Shown here piece by piece: positions 15,948 to 27,195 of a stretch of 55,005 bases of DNA. The notes beneath the pieces were generated by a model that made no database searches, had not been told where the DNA came from, and saw nothing but the letters and a program-made list of their open reading frames with translations. Source of the DNA: a virus; the IMG/VR virus record IMGVR_UViG_3300020021_000016, positions 1 through 55,005 of that record; one strand, given 5' to 3'. A program made the translations under genes and the position numbers. Position 1 is the stretch's first letter. Each line of letters opens with the position of its first letter.

Positions 15948-16406
15948 GTGACCAAGGAGCTGGGTGCAGCGCTCGACGACCGCGTGTGGCGAACGCTGCG
16001 CGCGAAGGTCGCCGACATCGCGAACCACAAGGTCAAGGTCGGCTGGCTCGACGATGGGCAGGAGCACGACGGGATCACGCTGGCCGAGCTCGCCGTGATC
16101 CACGAGTTCGGCACCGAGAACATCCCGGCGCGCGAACCGATGCGGCGTACCTTCACCGAGCCCGAGGGTGTCGAAGAGAACGCGAAGATCTGCACGCGGC
16201 TCGCGCGCTCGCTGATCAACGACAAGCTCGAGGTCGAGCAAGCGCTCGGGCTGCTCGGTGCGTGGGGCGTCAGCGCGGTGCAGCGCCGAATCAAGATGGG
16301 GTTGTGGCCGCCGCTTCAGCCGGCGACGGTCGCGGCGAAGGGCAGCAGCACGCCTTTGATCGACACCGCGGCTCTAGTCAATGGACTTACGTGGGTGGTG
16401 GCCTGA
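15948..16406 (+). CDS. Head/tail completion protein (HK97 gp10 / Mu virion morphogenesis-like)
   Basis: 152 residues from a GTG after a 54-bp gap. KVKVGWLDDGQEHDGITLAELAVIHEFGTENIPAREPMRRTF is the recognisable HK97-gp10-type core (the HEFGT...IPARPF motif). The C-terminal part contains LWPPLQPATVAAKGSSTPLIDTAALV, also typical. It links head and tail. The stop overlaps the next ATG by one base. Confidence 0.78.
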   Translation: MTKELGAALDDRVWRTLRAKVADIANHKVKVGWLDDGQEHDGITLAELAVIHEFGTENIPAREPMRRTFTEPEGVEENAKICTRLARSLINDKLEVEQALGLLGAWGVSAVQRRIKMGLWPPLQPATVAAKGSSTPLIDTAALVNGLTWVVA

Positions 16407-17038
16407 TGGGCTTCGCGTCGATGATCACTTCGACGTTCAAGACCGGCGACTACGTCGTGCGCCGATACGCCACCGGCGCGCTCGATTCGAGCGGGCGCTA
16501 TCTGCCCAGCGCGGACACGGATCTCGATGTGACCGCGGTCGATGTGGTCGCGGACACGCTGACGATCGTCGGTCACGACCTCGCCACCGGCGATGGCCCG
16601 CTCTGGTTCTCGGTCCCGGACCCGACGGTCGACGTCCTGCCGACGCCGCTGGATGCGAGCTTGCCGAACTGGGCGATCTTCGTCGACGTCGACACGATCC
16701 AGGTCGCGGCCTCGAAAGCCGACGCGATCGCGCTGATCCCGATCGACCTGACCGACATCGGCCTCGGCGCGTTCCCGCACCTGTCCAACTCGTTCATCGC
16801 TCCGGGCTCGGTGCAGGCGCTCGGCGACGACGAGCTCCGCGATCTGCCCGAGGGCCAGAGCACCGAAGACATGCGGCAGCTCTTCACCATCGTCGAGCTC
16901 CGCGAGCGGACCAACGACAACGACCCCGACGTCGTGCTCGTCGACGGCAAGCACTTCCGCGTCAACAAGGTGCGCCACTACGGCACGCTGAGCGGCGGCC
17001 ACTACGTCTCGACGATCGAGAAGCTGGAGATCCTGTGA
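16406..17038 (+). CDS. Neck/tail protein with inserted beta-module
   Basis: 210 residues. The ends (FKTGDYVVRRYATGALDSSGRY and DDPDVVLVDGKHFRVNKV-like sequence with SGGHYVSTIEKL) look like a small phage head-tail joining protein. Between residues 50 and 122 lies an insertion (DTLTIVGHDLATGDGPLWF ... PNWAIFVDVDTIQVAASKADAIAL) homologous to insertions in the next two genes. The ATG overlaps the previous stop; the stop overlaps the next GTG. Confidence 0.65.
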   Translation: MGFASMITSTFKTGDYVVRRYATGALDSSGRYLPSADTDLDVTAVDVVADTLTIVGHDLATGDGPLWFSVPDPTVDVLPTPLDASLPNWAIFVDVDTIQVAASKADAIALIPIDLTDIGLGAFPHLSNSFIAPGSVQALGDDELRDLPEGQSTEDMRQLFTIVELRERTNDNDPDVVLVDGKHFRVNKVRHYGTLSGGHYVSTIEKLEIL

Positions 17039-17922
17039 CGGACGCGATCTCCTGGGGCACGATCCTGCCCGCGGTCCGCGCGTGGGTCGCGGACGGGTCC
17101 GGCCTCGATCCGTCGAAGTGCATCCTCGCGAGGACGGGTGCAGGTCGGCCAACGCCACCGCACATCGAGATCGACTGTGACGACGTTCGCTCCGTGGCGC
17201 ACGACTGGTCGACACGCGAAGCGAACCAGCTCGTGTTCGCACCGCAGGTCGTCACGCTCGTCGACCCGGCGACGGACCGGCTGACGATCATCGGCCACGC
17301 GCTCGAGCTCGGCGACGGCGCCGTCCATATCTCCACGGGCGGCGTTGCTCCGGGCGGGCTCGCGATCGACACCGACTACTGGGTGGTAGTCGTCGACGCG
17401 AACCACGTCCAGCTCGCGGAGACCTTCCTCGATGCGATGGCCACGCCGCCCGTTGTCATCGACATCACGAGCGCCGGCAGCGGCGGGCTCAGCGTGATCA
17501 CGACGACCGTCGCCGAGCGCGTCGGTGAAGAGGTCAACCACATCGTCCAGGGCATCCGCGAGATGAACGTCACGCTGACGTGCTTCGGAGAGAAGGGCAC
17601 GGACGTCACGCCGATGCGGATCTTGACGAACGTGCTCGCGGTGATTCCGTTCCACGTCGAGGACCTCAACAACGCGGGGTTCGGCGTCTCCGACCTCGGC
17701 GCCGGCTTCGCCCAGGGCGTGGTGCAGTCCATCCCCGGATCCCGCGGCGGCATCCTCGAGCCCCGCGCGCGCGTCCAGATCACCGGATACGTCAGCTCGT
17801 CGCTGACCCGGCTGGACAACTACATCGCGACCGTCGAGGCGACGGTCCACGCGCAGTCGGAGACCGGCGTCGATCTCGCAACCACGCCGGTCGTGTTCCA
17901 GCTCGAGCAAGGAGATGCCTGA
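17035..17922 (+). CDS. Tail terminator-like protein (LIC_12616 family) with inserted beta-module
   Basis: 295 residues. The N-terminus (WGTILPAVRAWVADGSGL) and C-terminus (IPFHVEDLNNAGFGVSDLGAG, VEATVHAQSE) match the LIC_12616-type tail protein found before sheath genes. Residues 80-150 are an insertion (DRLTIIGHALELGDGAVHI ... DTDYWVVVVDANHVQLAET) homologous to those in the neighbouring genes; it interrupts a protein that normally lacks it. Probably caps the tail tube. Confidence 0.7.
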   Translation: MTDAISWGTILPAVRAWVADGSGLDPSKCILARTGAGRPTPPHIEIDCDDVRSVAHDWSTREANQLVFAPQVVTLVDPATDRLTIIGHALELGDGAVHISTGGVAPGGLAIDTDYWVVVVDANHVQLAETFLDAMATPPVVIDITSAGSGGLSVITTTVAERVGEEVNHIVQGIREMNVTLTCFGEKGTDVTPMRILTNVLAVIPFHVEDLNNAGFGVSDLGAGFAQGVVQSIPGSRGGILEPRARVQITGYVSSSLTRLDNYIATVEATVHAQSETGVDLATTPVVFQLEQGDA

Positions 17923-19604
17923 TGGGTCGCTTCGTAAATCTGCAAGTCGCGATCGTCGCCGGCGGTCCCACGCGCGAGGGCTTCGGGCTCGATCTGTTCC
18001 TGTCCCATCGCGCCAACAGCCACAGCGATTTTCACGAGCGCGCGCGGCTCTACAACGAGACCTCTGACGCTGTCGCGGATGGCTTCGCGGAGGACTCGCC
18101 CGAGGTGCGCTGGCTCGACGCGCTGTTCTCGCAGACGCCGCGTCCACCGCAGGCTGCGATCGGCCGCTGCGAATCGGCGGTCACGCAGAAGTACACGATC
18201 AGCCAGCGCGCCTTGCGTGCGCTCAGCAAGTACAAGCTCAACGTCGACGGCGAAGGCGTGGCGAGCGGGCAGGTCGTCTATACCTCCCTCGCGTCGCCAA
18301 CGGCCGAGGCGATTCACGCGGGGCTCGTCACGGGATTGAACGCCGTTGTCGGCGCGAACTACACGGCCGCGCTCGACGTGCTTGCCGCCTTCGTCGACTT
18401 CGTCTACACGGCGGACAGCGCCAGCGATCAGCTGCACGCGGTCGCGCACGGTCTGAAGAACGGTGACGGCCCGGTCGAGACATCGAACGCTGGAGGTGGT
18501 CTGCCGACCGGCCTCGCGGTCGCGACTCCGTACTGGGTCATCCTCGTCGATGCCGACCACTTCAAGCTCGCCACGTCGCAGGCGAACGCGATCGCGGGCG
18601 TGAACATCGACATCACCACGAACGGCACGGGCGTCCAGACGCTGCTGCACCAGCCGAACATGACGAGCCCGTCGGTTGGCTTCACGGTCACCGCCAACGC
18701 GGCTGGCAACTGGTTCTCGATCGGCGCGACCGACATCGGCGCGATCAACATTGCGCAGACACATGCCGACCCCGGCATCGCGGCGGACCTCGACGCGATC
18801 GCGCAGGAGATTGGCCAGAACGTCTCGACCGACTTCTACCGGGTCGACTCGGCCTACAACAGCAAGGCCTACGTCCAGGGCGTCTCCACGTGGGTCGAGG
18901 CGAATGCGCGCACGTACATCGTCGACTCGCAGGACTCGGACAGCGCGAACACCGCCTACGATCCGAACGCATCGACCGACACGCTCGCGGTGCTGAAGAT
19001 CGCGAGCCTGAAGCGCACGATGCCGCTGTACCACCCACGCCCGGCGGCATTCTTGTCGGCCGCCCTCAACGGCATCTTGCTGCCGATGAACCCCGGCCTT
19101 TGGACCGCGGCGTTCAAGCAACCCGTCGGGCCCGAGACCGTGCCGCTGACGCCCACGCAGATCGCGAACCTCGAAGCCCGAAGCGCTGGTTCGTTCACGC
19201 GCGAAGGCTCGCTCAACCTGACGTGGAACGGCGCCGTTCCGAACGCCCAATACGGGTTCTTCGACAACACGGTGTCGATCGACTGGTTCCTCAACGCGCT
19301 GTACACGAACCTGCTCGGCGTGCTCGCGTCCAAGCCGAAGTCGGGCTTCGACGACAAGGACATCGACGACATCGCCGCGTCGGCTCGCTCGGTCGTGCTC
19401 GAGGGCATCTCCGACGCGCACAAGATGATCGCAGCGGGCACGCCGGGTGATCCGCTCGACCCGGTGCCACAGGTCATCTGGCCCAAGGTGCGCGACATCG
19501 ATCCGACGACCCGCGCACTGCGCAAGCTTCCCAACGGAACCATCAAGGTTCGCTTTCTCGGTGCCATTCAAGAGATCGACGGCACCGTCACCGTCTCGTT
19601 CTGA
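17922..19604 (+). CDS. Tail sheath protein (DUF3383 family) with inserted beta-module
   Basis: 560 residues, ggag upstream of ATG 17922. DUF3383-type features are RAL.ALSKYK-like repeats, NWFSIGATDIGAINIAQTHADPGIAADLDAI, MNPGLWTAAFKQPVGP and YGFFDNTVSIDWFLNALYTNLL near the C-terminus. Residues 167-238 hold the third copy of the inserted module (SDQLHAVAHGLKNGDGPVE ... TPYWVILVDADHFKLATSQ). The sheath contracts on infection. The insertion should project from the sheath surface. Confidence 0.85.
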   Translation: MGRFVNLQVAIVAGGPTREGFGLDLFLSHRANSHSDFHERARLYNETSDAVADGFAEDSPEVRWLDALFSQTPRPPQAAIGRCESAVTQKYTISQRALRALSKYKLNVDGEGVASGQVVYTSLASPTAEAIHAGLVTGLNAVVGANYTAALDVLAAFVDFVYTADSASDQLHAVAHGLKNGDGPVETSNAGGGLPTGLAVATPYWVILVDADHFKLATSQANAIAGVNIDITTNGTGVQTLLHQPNMTSPSVGFTVTANAAGNWFSIGATDIGAINIAQTHADPGIAADLDAIAQEIGQNVSTDFYRVDSAYNSKAYVQGVSTWVEANARTYIVDSQDSDSANTAYDPNASTDTLAVLKIASLKRTMPLYHPRPAAFLSAALNGILLPMNPGLWTAAFKQPVGPETVPLTPTQIANLEARSAGSFTREGSLNLTWNGAVPNAQYGFFDNTVSIDWFLNALYTNLLGVLASKPKSGFDDKDIDDIAASARSVVLEGISDAHKMIAAGTPGDPLDPVPQVIWPKVRDIDPTTRALRKLPNGTIKVRFLGAIQEIDGTVTVSF

Positions 19605-19616
19605 GGAGGACCCCCG

Positions 19617-20057
19617 ATGCCGCCCTTGCGATACAACCCGAAGCGCATCAACAACTCGTGGGTCCCCGACGGGGAGACGATCAACTTCCAAGGGTTCATG
19701 GACGGGACCTTCGTCGAGGTCGAATTCGACGAGGCCCAGGTCACCACGCACAACGGCGCGGACGGCACGACGACGTTCATTTTGAACGCGAACGAGACCG
19801 CGACGGCGACCGTCACGATCGTCCAGGGCTCTCCGACCAACGACGACTTCTCGGAGAACCTGCCGAGCGCGCGGTTCGATCGGATGCCCGGCGGACCTTG
19901 GAATCTGGCCGACCTCAACGGCTTCTCGTTGGTGACGAGCGAGTTCGCCGTCATCGAGAAGGTGGCGAAGGTCGACTTCGGCAAGGGCGTGGTCGGGCGC
20001 GCGTGGAAGTTCAAGCTCCACCAGGCGCAGATCATCGCGGGCGGTGACGACTCGTGA
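19617..20057 (+). CDS. Tail tube protein (DUF3277-like)
   Basis: 146 residues with ctgaggagg upstream of ATG 19617. It has a beta-rich sequence with NPKRINNSWVPDGETINFQGFMDGTFVEVEFDE and NLADLNGFSLVTSEFAVIEKV, as in tube proteins that follow sheath genes in this phage type. Hexameric rings of it form the inner tube. It overlaps the chaperone GTG by 4 bp. Confidence 0.75.
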   Translation: MPPLRYNPKRINNSWVPDGETINFQGFMDGTFVEVEFDEAQVTTHNGADGTTTFILNANETATATVTIVQGSPTNDDFSENLPSARFDRMPGGPWNLADLNGFSLVTSEFAVIEKVAKVDFGKGVVGRAWKFKLHQAQIIAGGDDS

Positions 20058-25302: not shown

Positions 25303-25676
25303 CACTCGAATCGGAGTTCGTCGATCTCGAAGTCGGCGACGACGGCGTGCTCGTGTTCTACGACGATGGCCCGCGCTTCGTGAGCGGCATCGCCGGCGTC
25401 GCTCAGCGGATTCGCATCGCGCTTCGGCTGCTCTTCGGCGAGTGGTCGATGGACCAGACGATCGGGATGAAATGGTACACCGAGCTGCTCGGCGATCCGT
25501 CGAAGGGCAGCGACCGAAACGCGAAGCTCCGTTCGGCGATCACGACGGAGATCCTGTCGATCGAGGACGTCATTGCCGTGACGTCGATGTCGTTCACGCC
25601 GACGCCGACCAAGCGCAAGATCACCGTCACCACCACGGTAAAGACGGCGTTTGGCACCACCACCGTGGCCGTGTAG
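25299..25676 (+). CDS. Baseplate wedge protein (gp25/GP46-like)
   Basis: 125 residues, ATG overlapping the spike stop. The core FVSGIAGVAQRIRIALRLLFGEWSMDQTIGMKWYTELLG, followed by a beta-rich C-terminus (VIAVTSMSFTPTPTKRKITVTTT), is typical of the small gp25/GP46-like wedge gene that precedes baseplate J. Confidence 0.8.
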   Translation: MTLESEFVDLEVGDDGVLVFYDDGPRFVSGIAGVAQRIRIALRLLFGEWSMDQTIGMKWYTELLGDPSKGSDRNAKLRSAITTEILSIEDVIAVTSMSFTPTPTKRKITVTTTVKTAFGTTTVAV

Positions 25677-25680
25677 CCCG

Positions 25681-27195
25681 ATGCCGAGCCCTGGCCTGAA
25701 TCCCGAAGGCTTCGAGATCGAGACGATTCCGGACCTCGTCACGGACCAGACTCAGCAGCTGCAGCTCGAATTCGGTCAGAGCATCCTCAAGCCGAAGACG
25801 TTCCTGACGTTCATGGTCGGCATCGTCGCGACGATCGCCGGCAAGGTGTGGGAGCAGCTCGAGGTGCTCTACGACGCGTGGAACCCCGACAAGGCGAACG
25901 GCGTGGCGCTCGAGGACCTCTCGCTCGTCACGGGCACGTTCAAGAAGTTTGCGGCGCCGTCGAAGGCGACCGTGACGTTCTGCGGCGACGACGGCTTCGT
26001 GGTCACCACCGGCACGCTCGTCGCGACCAGCGGGGGTCCGCGCTTCCAGACAATCAGCAACGTCATCGTCACCGCGCTCGACGCGTGGACGATCAGCTCG
26101 GCGTACTCGAAAGGCGACCGCGTGACGAACGCGAGCCGCTGCTACCAATGCATCACGGCAGGTGTGAGCGCGGGATCGGGTGGACCGACGACCACAACGG
26201 ACGACATCACCGATGGCACAGCGCACTGGATCTACCTCGGCGAGGGCACGGCGGCCGTTGACGCGACCATGCTGTCGCTCGACAATGGACCGATCGTCGC
26301 GGTCGCCGGCGACCTGACCGACATCGTCACGCCCGTCGGCGGCCTCAACAGCGCGCGCAACATCGCGGACGCCGCGCTCGGCAACCTCGACCAGACCGAC
26401 GAGGAGCTTCGGCTGACGCGCGAGGCCGAGCTTCGGGGCCAATCGAAGAGCCCGGCCGACGCGGTGCGCGCGGCGCTCCTCAAGCTCGACAGCGTCACGA
26501 GCGTGACCGTGTTCACCAACCTGACGAACGTCGTGAACGTCGACGGCATGCCGCCGCACAGCCTCGAAGCGCTCGTGCTCGGCGGCGACGACCAGGACAT
26601 CTGGGATGCGCTGTGGGCGAACGTGGCGGGCGGCATCACGACAACCGGCACCGAAGTCGGTACGACGCTCGACAGTCAGGGCACGTCGCAGCCCGAGGCG
26701 TTCTCGCGCCCCGACGCGAAGCCCATCTTCGTCGACCTCACGCTGATCAAAGATCCGGCGTTCTACCCGGTCAACGGTGACGACCAGGTCTCGGTGGACG
26801 TCGTCGCGTTTGGCCGGCTCGGTGGCACCGGCAAGGACGCGGTCCCCTCGGCGCTCGGCGCGCAGGCGTTCCAGGTCAGCGGCGTTCTCGAGGTCCCGCA
26901 GGTCCTCATCTACACGGACGTCATCGGCGTGGCGGCCGCGTGGATTGCGACGCATGCGTACGTCGCCACGGTGGGTGCTCGCTCGGTCGTGACCAACGAT
27001 GGCGGTCGCGCGTACATCTGCATCACCGCGGGCGTGAGCGCGGGCGCTGGCGGACCCACGGGTGTCGGCCAGGACATCACGGACGGTGCCGCGCACTGGG
27101 CCTTCATCGGCGCGACGTTCGCGATCGGCACGCGCGAGCGCGCGACCTACGACATCGCGAACGTGAACATCCACAGCTCGGACGGTTTGCCATGA
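25681..27195 (+). CDS. Baseplate J-like protein with two inserted CBM-like modules
   Basis: 504 residues from ATG 25681. J-type features are LEDLSLVTG, a region TPVGGLNSARNIADAALGNLDQTDEELRLTREAEL, and ADAVRAALLKLDSVTSVTVFTN. Two homologous 50-60 residue modules are inserted: about 135-188 (WTISSAYSKGDRVTNASR, CITAGVSAGSGGPT, GTAHWIYLG) and near the C-terminus (WIATHAYVATVGARSVV, CITAGVSAGAGGPT, GAAHWAFIG). They resemble small carbohydrate-binding (CBM5/12-like) folds, which may help the baseplate grip host surface glycans. Confidence 0.85.
   Translation: MPSPGLNPEGFEIETIPDLVTDQTQQLQLEFGQSILKPKTFLTFMVGIVATIAGKVWEQLEVLYDAWNPDKANGVALEDLSLVTGTFKKFAAPSKATVTFCGDDGFVVTTGTLVATSGGPRFQTISNVIVTALDAWTISSAYSKGDRVTNASRCYQCITAGVSAGSGGPTTTTDDITDGTAHWIYLGEGTAAVDATMLSLDNGPIVAVAGDLTDIVTPVGGLNSARNIADAALGNLDQTDEELRLTREAELRGQSKSPADAVRAALLKLDSVTSVTVFTNLTNVVNVDGMPPHSLEALVLGGDDQDIWDALWANVAGGITTTGTEVGTTLDSQGTSQPEAFSRPDAKPIFVDLTLIKDPAFYPVNGDDQVSVDVVAFGRLGGTGKDAVPSALGAQAFQVSGVLEVPQVLIYTDVIGVAAAWIATHAYVATVGARSVVTNDGGRAYICITAGVSAGAGGPTGVGQDITDGAAHWAFIGATFAIGTRERATYDIANVNIHSSDGLP

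Follow-up and report, generated by a model that had tools for sequence, protein, structure and literature searches.

What does one small module do in three consecutive genes for neck and tail proteins, and how did it come to be in all of them? The question is raised by IMG/VR virus record IMGVR_UViG_3300020021_000016, analyzed here over its 55,005 bases (the window), in which a head-closure protein (P0001), a probable tail terminator (P0002), and a contractile tail sheath (P0003) each contain one copy of a module of ∼85 residues. A sequence-only reading of the window had proposed that these neighboring proteins share a related segment, and independent comparisons bear this out. In pairwise BLASTP the module segments of P0001 and P0002 are 39 per cent identical over 84 amino acids (E 4e-10), those of P0002 and P0003 47 per cent over 79 (E 3e-15), and those of P0001 and P0003 41 per cent over 80 (E 3e-12), and the repeats are detectable even in the DNA (69–72 per cent identity over 42–69 bases). 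A hidden Markov model (HMM) of the module finds all three segments, with bounds a little wider than those first proposed, and the three-copy HMM, run on the window in all six frames, matched nothing beyond them (next best E = 2). The three segments are homologous, and chance resemblance of beta-rich sequence was rejected as the source of their likeness.

The proteins that carry the module were expected to be unrelated to one another, and they do fall into separate families (phrog_939 for head closure, PF23961/phrog_7975 for the terminator, phrog_205 for the sheath). P0001 is a head-closure protein: its family profile matches head-closure chains in the PDB (9mt4_E at 1.9e-9 and the Pam3 connector 8hdr_A at 1e-8), and its gene lies between neck1 and the terminator. 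P0003 is a contractile tail sheath, with sequence similarity over the N- and C-terminal parts of its core and a PDB sheath match at E 3e-21; its family profile matches 9zdk_S at 6.5e-80 as well as the sheaths of Sf14, Bas63, PhiTE, Pam3, and Phi92, and its predicted structure has the sheath fold, with Foldseek matches to the Bas63 and Sf14 sheaths at about 6e-22 to 1e-21. For P0002 the likeliest identity is tail terminator, on weaker evidence than for the other two parents. It matches Pfam family PF23961 (Phage_tail_terminator_9) at E 0.0029 and 17.8 bits, below the cut-off of 27, while its relatives match the tail terminator family phrog_7975 at 4e-6 to 6e-4; the terminator family profile gave weak PDB matches only (0.11 and 0.51), and the position between head closure and sheath fits a terminator.

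Comparison with related phages indicates that the module is an insertion in all three parents. Fifteen IMG/VR contigs, some of them partial, share the gene order capsid, DUF4054, neck1, head closure, terminator, sheath, tube; they were found by a DNA pattern for YWV[I/V].VDA[N/D] together with a sheath-alignment scan. The first such scan had reached distant phages only (∼84–91 kb), direct IMG/VR scans with the sheath or capsid protein alone returned no close relative, and tblastn with the head-closure and terminator sequences outside the module gave no matches among named phages. Two reference phages, Caudoviricetes sp. ctsHD2 and Hafnia phage SarahDanielle, have all three genes in the same order without the module, and module-free homologues measure 121–132 amino acids for head closure, ∼184–196 for the terminator, and ∼440–456 for the sheath. 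Each parent thus exists module-free, which was the comparison that the sequence-only reading had called for, and the possibility that these families normally contain the module stretch was rejected.

The distribution of the insertions differs from gene to gene. Because the scans partly used module sequence, fractions among the relatives are not unbiased frequencies: the terminator carries the module in 11 of the 15 and the sheath carries it, at one site or another, likewise in 11 of the 15. In the terminator the insertion always occupies a single site, which the window shares with G001, L055, L056, L058, G014, L060, G005, L063, L066, L067, and L068, and it is absent from L057, L064, L065, the candidate terminator of G007, and the two reference phages. 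The sheath has two sites. Site 2, after 'GLNAVVG.NYTA', is used in six genomes (the window, G001, L055, L056, L057, and L058), and site 1, after 'SYT..AD' and before 'QLV..LNAV', in six others (G014, L060, G005, L063, L068, and G007); the sheaths of L064, L065, L066, and L067 have neither. Both sites lie inside the accessory region of the sheath, and the Pam3 sheath, which is devoid of this region, aligns on either side of it. In a profile alignment six distinct solved sheath sequences, five of them with the accessory region, have no residues opposite the module. The head-closure insertion occurs in the window only, leaving a clean gap against 13 related head-closure genes and the two reference phages.

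The point at which the head-closure protein is interrupted is also used by other sequence. The head-closure gene of L057 (L057:1567-2223) has a different insert of ∼140 residues there, which matches CBM_5_12 at E 1.4e-5, and L056 has a short extra loop at the same point. The type of repeat occupying this position in L057 is also found in the window itself, in the baseplate J-like protein. That protein has two such CBM5/12-like repeats, and in L057 the terminator bears a CBM5/12-like repeat at its C-terminus.

Given three adjacent copies in one genome, it might be supposed that a single module spread recently among the three genes of the window phage, all the more since terminator-type modules give the head-closure copy its highest score (73.3 bits, vs at most 57.8 with the other classes). 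This is nonetheless very improbable. The sheath copy is 67 per cent identical to the sheath module of L056 and only 41–47 per cent identical to its siblings in the window, the terminator copy groups with terminator modules of other phages, and the same terminator and sheath insertions are present in relatives. A recent triplication was rejected on the terminator and sheath copies already. The wider data point the same way: when 61 modules are placed on a tree, the label of the parent changes 16 times over six groups against a shuffled mean of 29.5, and syntenic modules require 9 changes by gene and site vs 26 by genome, on a tree of 82 columns only in which many forks are unresolved. In leave-one-genome-out scoring with class HMMs, 23 of 24 terminator and sheath modules were assigned to their own class, and the sheath module of the window was a near tie with a mixed class.

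These patterns suggest repeated insertion followed by inheritance rather than one recent burst. A parent tree of seven concatenated proteins joins the window to L056, G001, and L055, all with site 2 (support 100/99), and the two sheath sites are interleaved on it, with L058 (site 2) beside G005 and L068 (site 1), again at 100/99. To explain this interleaving, the module must have entered the sheath twice or more, or else shifted from one site to the other, and the existence of two sites shows that it moved more than once. Since the head-closure module scores best as a terminator type, a terminator gene would be the likeliest source of that copy. The earlier suggestion that the module moved or was copied between genes is accordingly upheld as to movement within the family, given two sheath sites and module-free parents, and fails as to recent spread among these three genes, where the terminator and sheath copies are closer to same-site modules of other phages.

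What kind of domain is being moved? An AlphaFold2 model of the module, drawing on 32 modules, has six strands and one short helix (predicted local distance difference test, pLDDT, 93.4; predicted template modeling score, pTM, 0.84). The same elements recur at residues 160-242 of the sheath model (pLDDT 81–89), flanked by low-confidence linkers at 148-153 and ∼241-250, as expected for an autonomous insert. The module is predicted to be a small beta barrel with a fold like that of the E1 FCCH domain: nearly all of the top 50 Foldseek matches in the PDB were ubiquitin-E1 structures, with probabilities mostly of 0.9–1.0 and template modeling scores of about 0.5–0.65, at E-values of only 0.07 to 0.6. 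Two modules match E1_FCCH (PF16190) weakly (best 14.0 bits, below the gathering cut-off of 29.5), and 4 of 32 match the endosialidase beta barrel (PF12195) weakly (best E 1.2e-5); the module profile found no match among PDB sequences. Kinship with tail fibers, which had also been suggested, is seen in both sequence and structure, as PHROG tail-fiber profiles match 27 of the 32 modules and baseplate profiles 22, and 46 viral models in BFVD match the fold at E<=1e-3, among them tail fibers, a tail spike, and baseplate wedge initiators. Two other identities were rejected. No Pfam match to an immunoglobulin-like (Ig-like) domain (Big_1/Big_2, I-set, FN3) was found in the 32 modules and no Ig-like chain in the Foldseek top 50; nor did any of the 32 match CBM5/12 (PF02839), whose matches are confined to the head-closure insert of L057 and, below the cut-off, the baseplate J protein of the window.

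By sequence comparison the module has the character of a promiscuous virion decoration module: its homologous copies lie in virion proteins unrelated to one another, the parents also exist without it, and it was inserted more than once. The function we consider probable is adhesion. In one environmental contractile-tailed lineage, a mobile, self-folding beta barrel of phage adhesion proteins, E1-FCCH-like and remotely linked to the endosialidase beta barrel, would have entered surface loops of the proteins that build neck and tail, and done so repeatedly. Inserted copies would point outward, away from the tube; at the neck they would form two additional rings of six, one on head closure and one on the terminator, and along the tail the sheath would contribute many more. 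So many copies could bind cell-surface or environmental glycans weakly and multivalently, ahead of the true receptor-binding proteins. There are precedents: extra sheath domains positioned away from the tube have been proposed to aid adhesion (PMC9230969), the neck, Dit, and major tail proteins of 936-group phages have carbohydrate-binding modules (CBMs), two of which were shown to bind the host (PMC6669499), and a site for polysialic acid that affects host discrimination lies in the endosialidase beta barrel (PMC12632334).

Several points weigh against adhesion. The link to the endosialidase barrel is below threshold (25.6 bits at best, from the module of a relative, against a gathering cut-off of 35), and no copy in the window matches it. 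Nor is E1 FCCH, the nearest of the solved folds, a lectin. The surface exposure of the modules is deduced from parent structures and the literature, and the loops of head closure and terminator could pack on adjacent neck rings instead of facing solvent.

Such packing leads to the chief competing explanation, that the modules are cement domains which clamp neighboring subunits of the neck rings and sheath and thereby stabilize the virion. The three decorated proteins are consecutive in the particle, as this would have it, and in PMC9230969 sheath domain II of phage 812 is cited as stabilizing the sheath disk and stabilization is named as an alternative to adhesion. Yet a free appendage suits the two sheath positions and the module-free L064, L065, and ctsHD2 better than does a fixed contact, the kin of the module lie in fibers, spikes, and baseplates, and the linkers of the sheath model are of low confidence, so that we regard reinforcement as unlikely. 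It is less likely still that the module is a neutral mobile insert, tolerated in permissive loops and under no selected role. Patchy presence, the use of several sites, and the occurrence in another phage of an unrelated kind of module where head closure is interrupted would all be expected of such an insert, but conservation across modules is strong (mean column identity 47 per cent), the terminator module is kept in 11 of the 15 relatives, insertions are always in frame, and the sheath-related matches are all in virion proteins.

If adhesion is the function, the insertion points themselves may be informative. That such points are sockets for binding modules is best supported here by the CBM5/12-like insert swapped in where head closure is interrupted, and we tentatively suggest that in this lineage insertion hot spots on consecutive rings, from the proteins next to the capsid through head closure and terminator to the sheath, might serve as interchangeable sockets for glycan-binding modules, whether this barrel or the CBM5/12-like type. 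Were this so, the whole neck and tail would form a continuous, swappable adhesive coat, and adhesion would not be confined to the tail tip.

Promiscuous beta domains and adhesion-type domains on virions, including extra domains in sheaths, are already known. Among them are the Ig-like domains that occur on phage virions (Fraser et al. 2006, reviewed in PMC9022992 and PMC9230969), which resemble the present case in that small autonomous beta domains of one family occur on unrelated virion proteins, vary in presence among relatives, and have been proposed to bind surface carbohydrate weakly. They differ in that neither Pfam nor Foldseek shows the window module to be Ig-like. Their five host classes are fiber, baseplate, tail tube, capsid, and Hoc, without head closure or terminator (PMC9022992), and Ig-like extra domains in sheaths have been described (PMC9230969). 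The CBMs of lactococcal 936 phages likewise place adhesion modules on several proteins of a single virion (neck, Dit, and the major tail protein), all three together in only 1 of 113 phages (PMC6669499), but there different module types are added to siphophage proteins, whereas the window has one homologous module, internal to the proteins of a contractile phage. The endosialidase beta barrel is also a small barrel of a phage adhesin, to which four of the modules show their weak likeness; all matches are below the curated cut-off, and the proteins that host the window module are not enzymes. E1 FCCH (of UBA1/UBA6) is the nearest solved fold, a resemblance in fold and not in function. Finally, the DUF3383-like sheaths of Sf14, Bas63, and PhiTE (PDB 9c39, 9mt4, 9cb9) are the same parent protein with the accessory region, and none has the inserted module.

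In the literature searched, coverage of which was incomplete and which is thus weak evidence of novelty, no phage was found in which head closure, terminator, and sheath all carry the same module, nor any precedent for a head-closure socket. The locus amounts to a natural insertion experiment: one module in three genes whose parents also exist without it, inserted at either of two places in the sheath, and replaced by another kind of module at the head-closure socket of a relative. Neck proteins are usually considered tightly constrained, and their loops are here marked as tolerating 85–140 extra residues. The role of neck and sheath decorations in adsorption becomes a directly testable question. 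Coordinates of the genes and module copies are collected in Table 1.

Table 1. Module copies, their parent genes, and neighboring features of the window (aa, amino acids).
Feature	Position	Strand	Description	Evidence
Neck1 / tail-completion protein	15948..16406	+	Directly upstream of head closure; no module	phrog_222 E 8e-36
P0001, head-closure (head-tail connector) protein	16406..17038	+	210 aa	phrog_939 E 1.1e-9; PDB profile matches
Module copy 1	16526..16786	+	In P0001, ∼residues 41-127, between 'TDLDVTA' and '..IAPGSVQAL'	Module HMM E 2e-35
P0002, most likely tail terminator (neck terminator)	17035..17922	+	295 aa; GTG start	PF23961 below cut-off; phrog_7975 in relatives; gene order
Module copy 2	17248..17502	+	In P0002, ∼residues 72-156, before 'VGEEVNHIVQGIRE'	Module HMM E 1e-35
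P0003, contractile tail sheath protein (DUF3383-like)	17922..19604	+	560 aa	phrog_205 E 7.4e-58; PDB profile; Foldseek
Module copy 3	18399..18650	+	In P0003 accessory domain, site 2, residues 160-243, after 'GLNAVVGANYTAA'	Module HMM E 9e-40
P0004, tail tube protein	19617..20057	+	Directly downstream of sheath; no module	phrog_280 E 2.8e-20; tube HMM 3e-68
Baseplate J-like protein	25651..27195	+	Two CBM5/12-like repeats	phrog_6 E 1.5e-32; phrog_20658, two stretches; CBM_5_12 E 0.0067, below cut-off
CBM5/12-like repeats of the baseplate J-like protein	26074-26232 and ∼26959-27150		'AYSKGDRVTN..CITAGVSAG.GGPT...ITDG..HW'	

The module was also seen beyond these three families. Directly ahead of the capsid gene, a small gene encodes a module-bearing protein of 219–230 amino acids in three contigs (L046:2888-3544, L055:2799-3488, and L068:2207-2890) and a protein of 133–135 amino acids without the module in G014 and G005, and so represents a further parent family with an insertion. 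After the capsid gene, a gene for ∼325–349 amino acids (in L043/L048, from G014; L046, from G001; and L055) has a module split at its GDG loop by a second insert of ∼140 residues; the homologue in L056 (212 amino acids) has the module intact, which points to nested insertion in the longer versions. In the Sphingomonas phages Kimi and MMDA13 (L003:4674-6497 and L004:4671-6512) the module lies within a protein of ∼610 amino acids, annotated as a tail tube in MMDA13. A Kofleriaceae metagenome-assembled genome has a module 43 per cent identical to that of the window in a frame of 348 amino acids (L089:6884-7927), which may hint at the host group or at a prophage.

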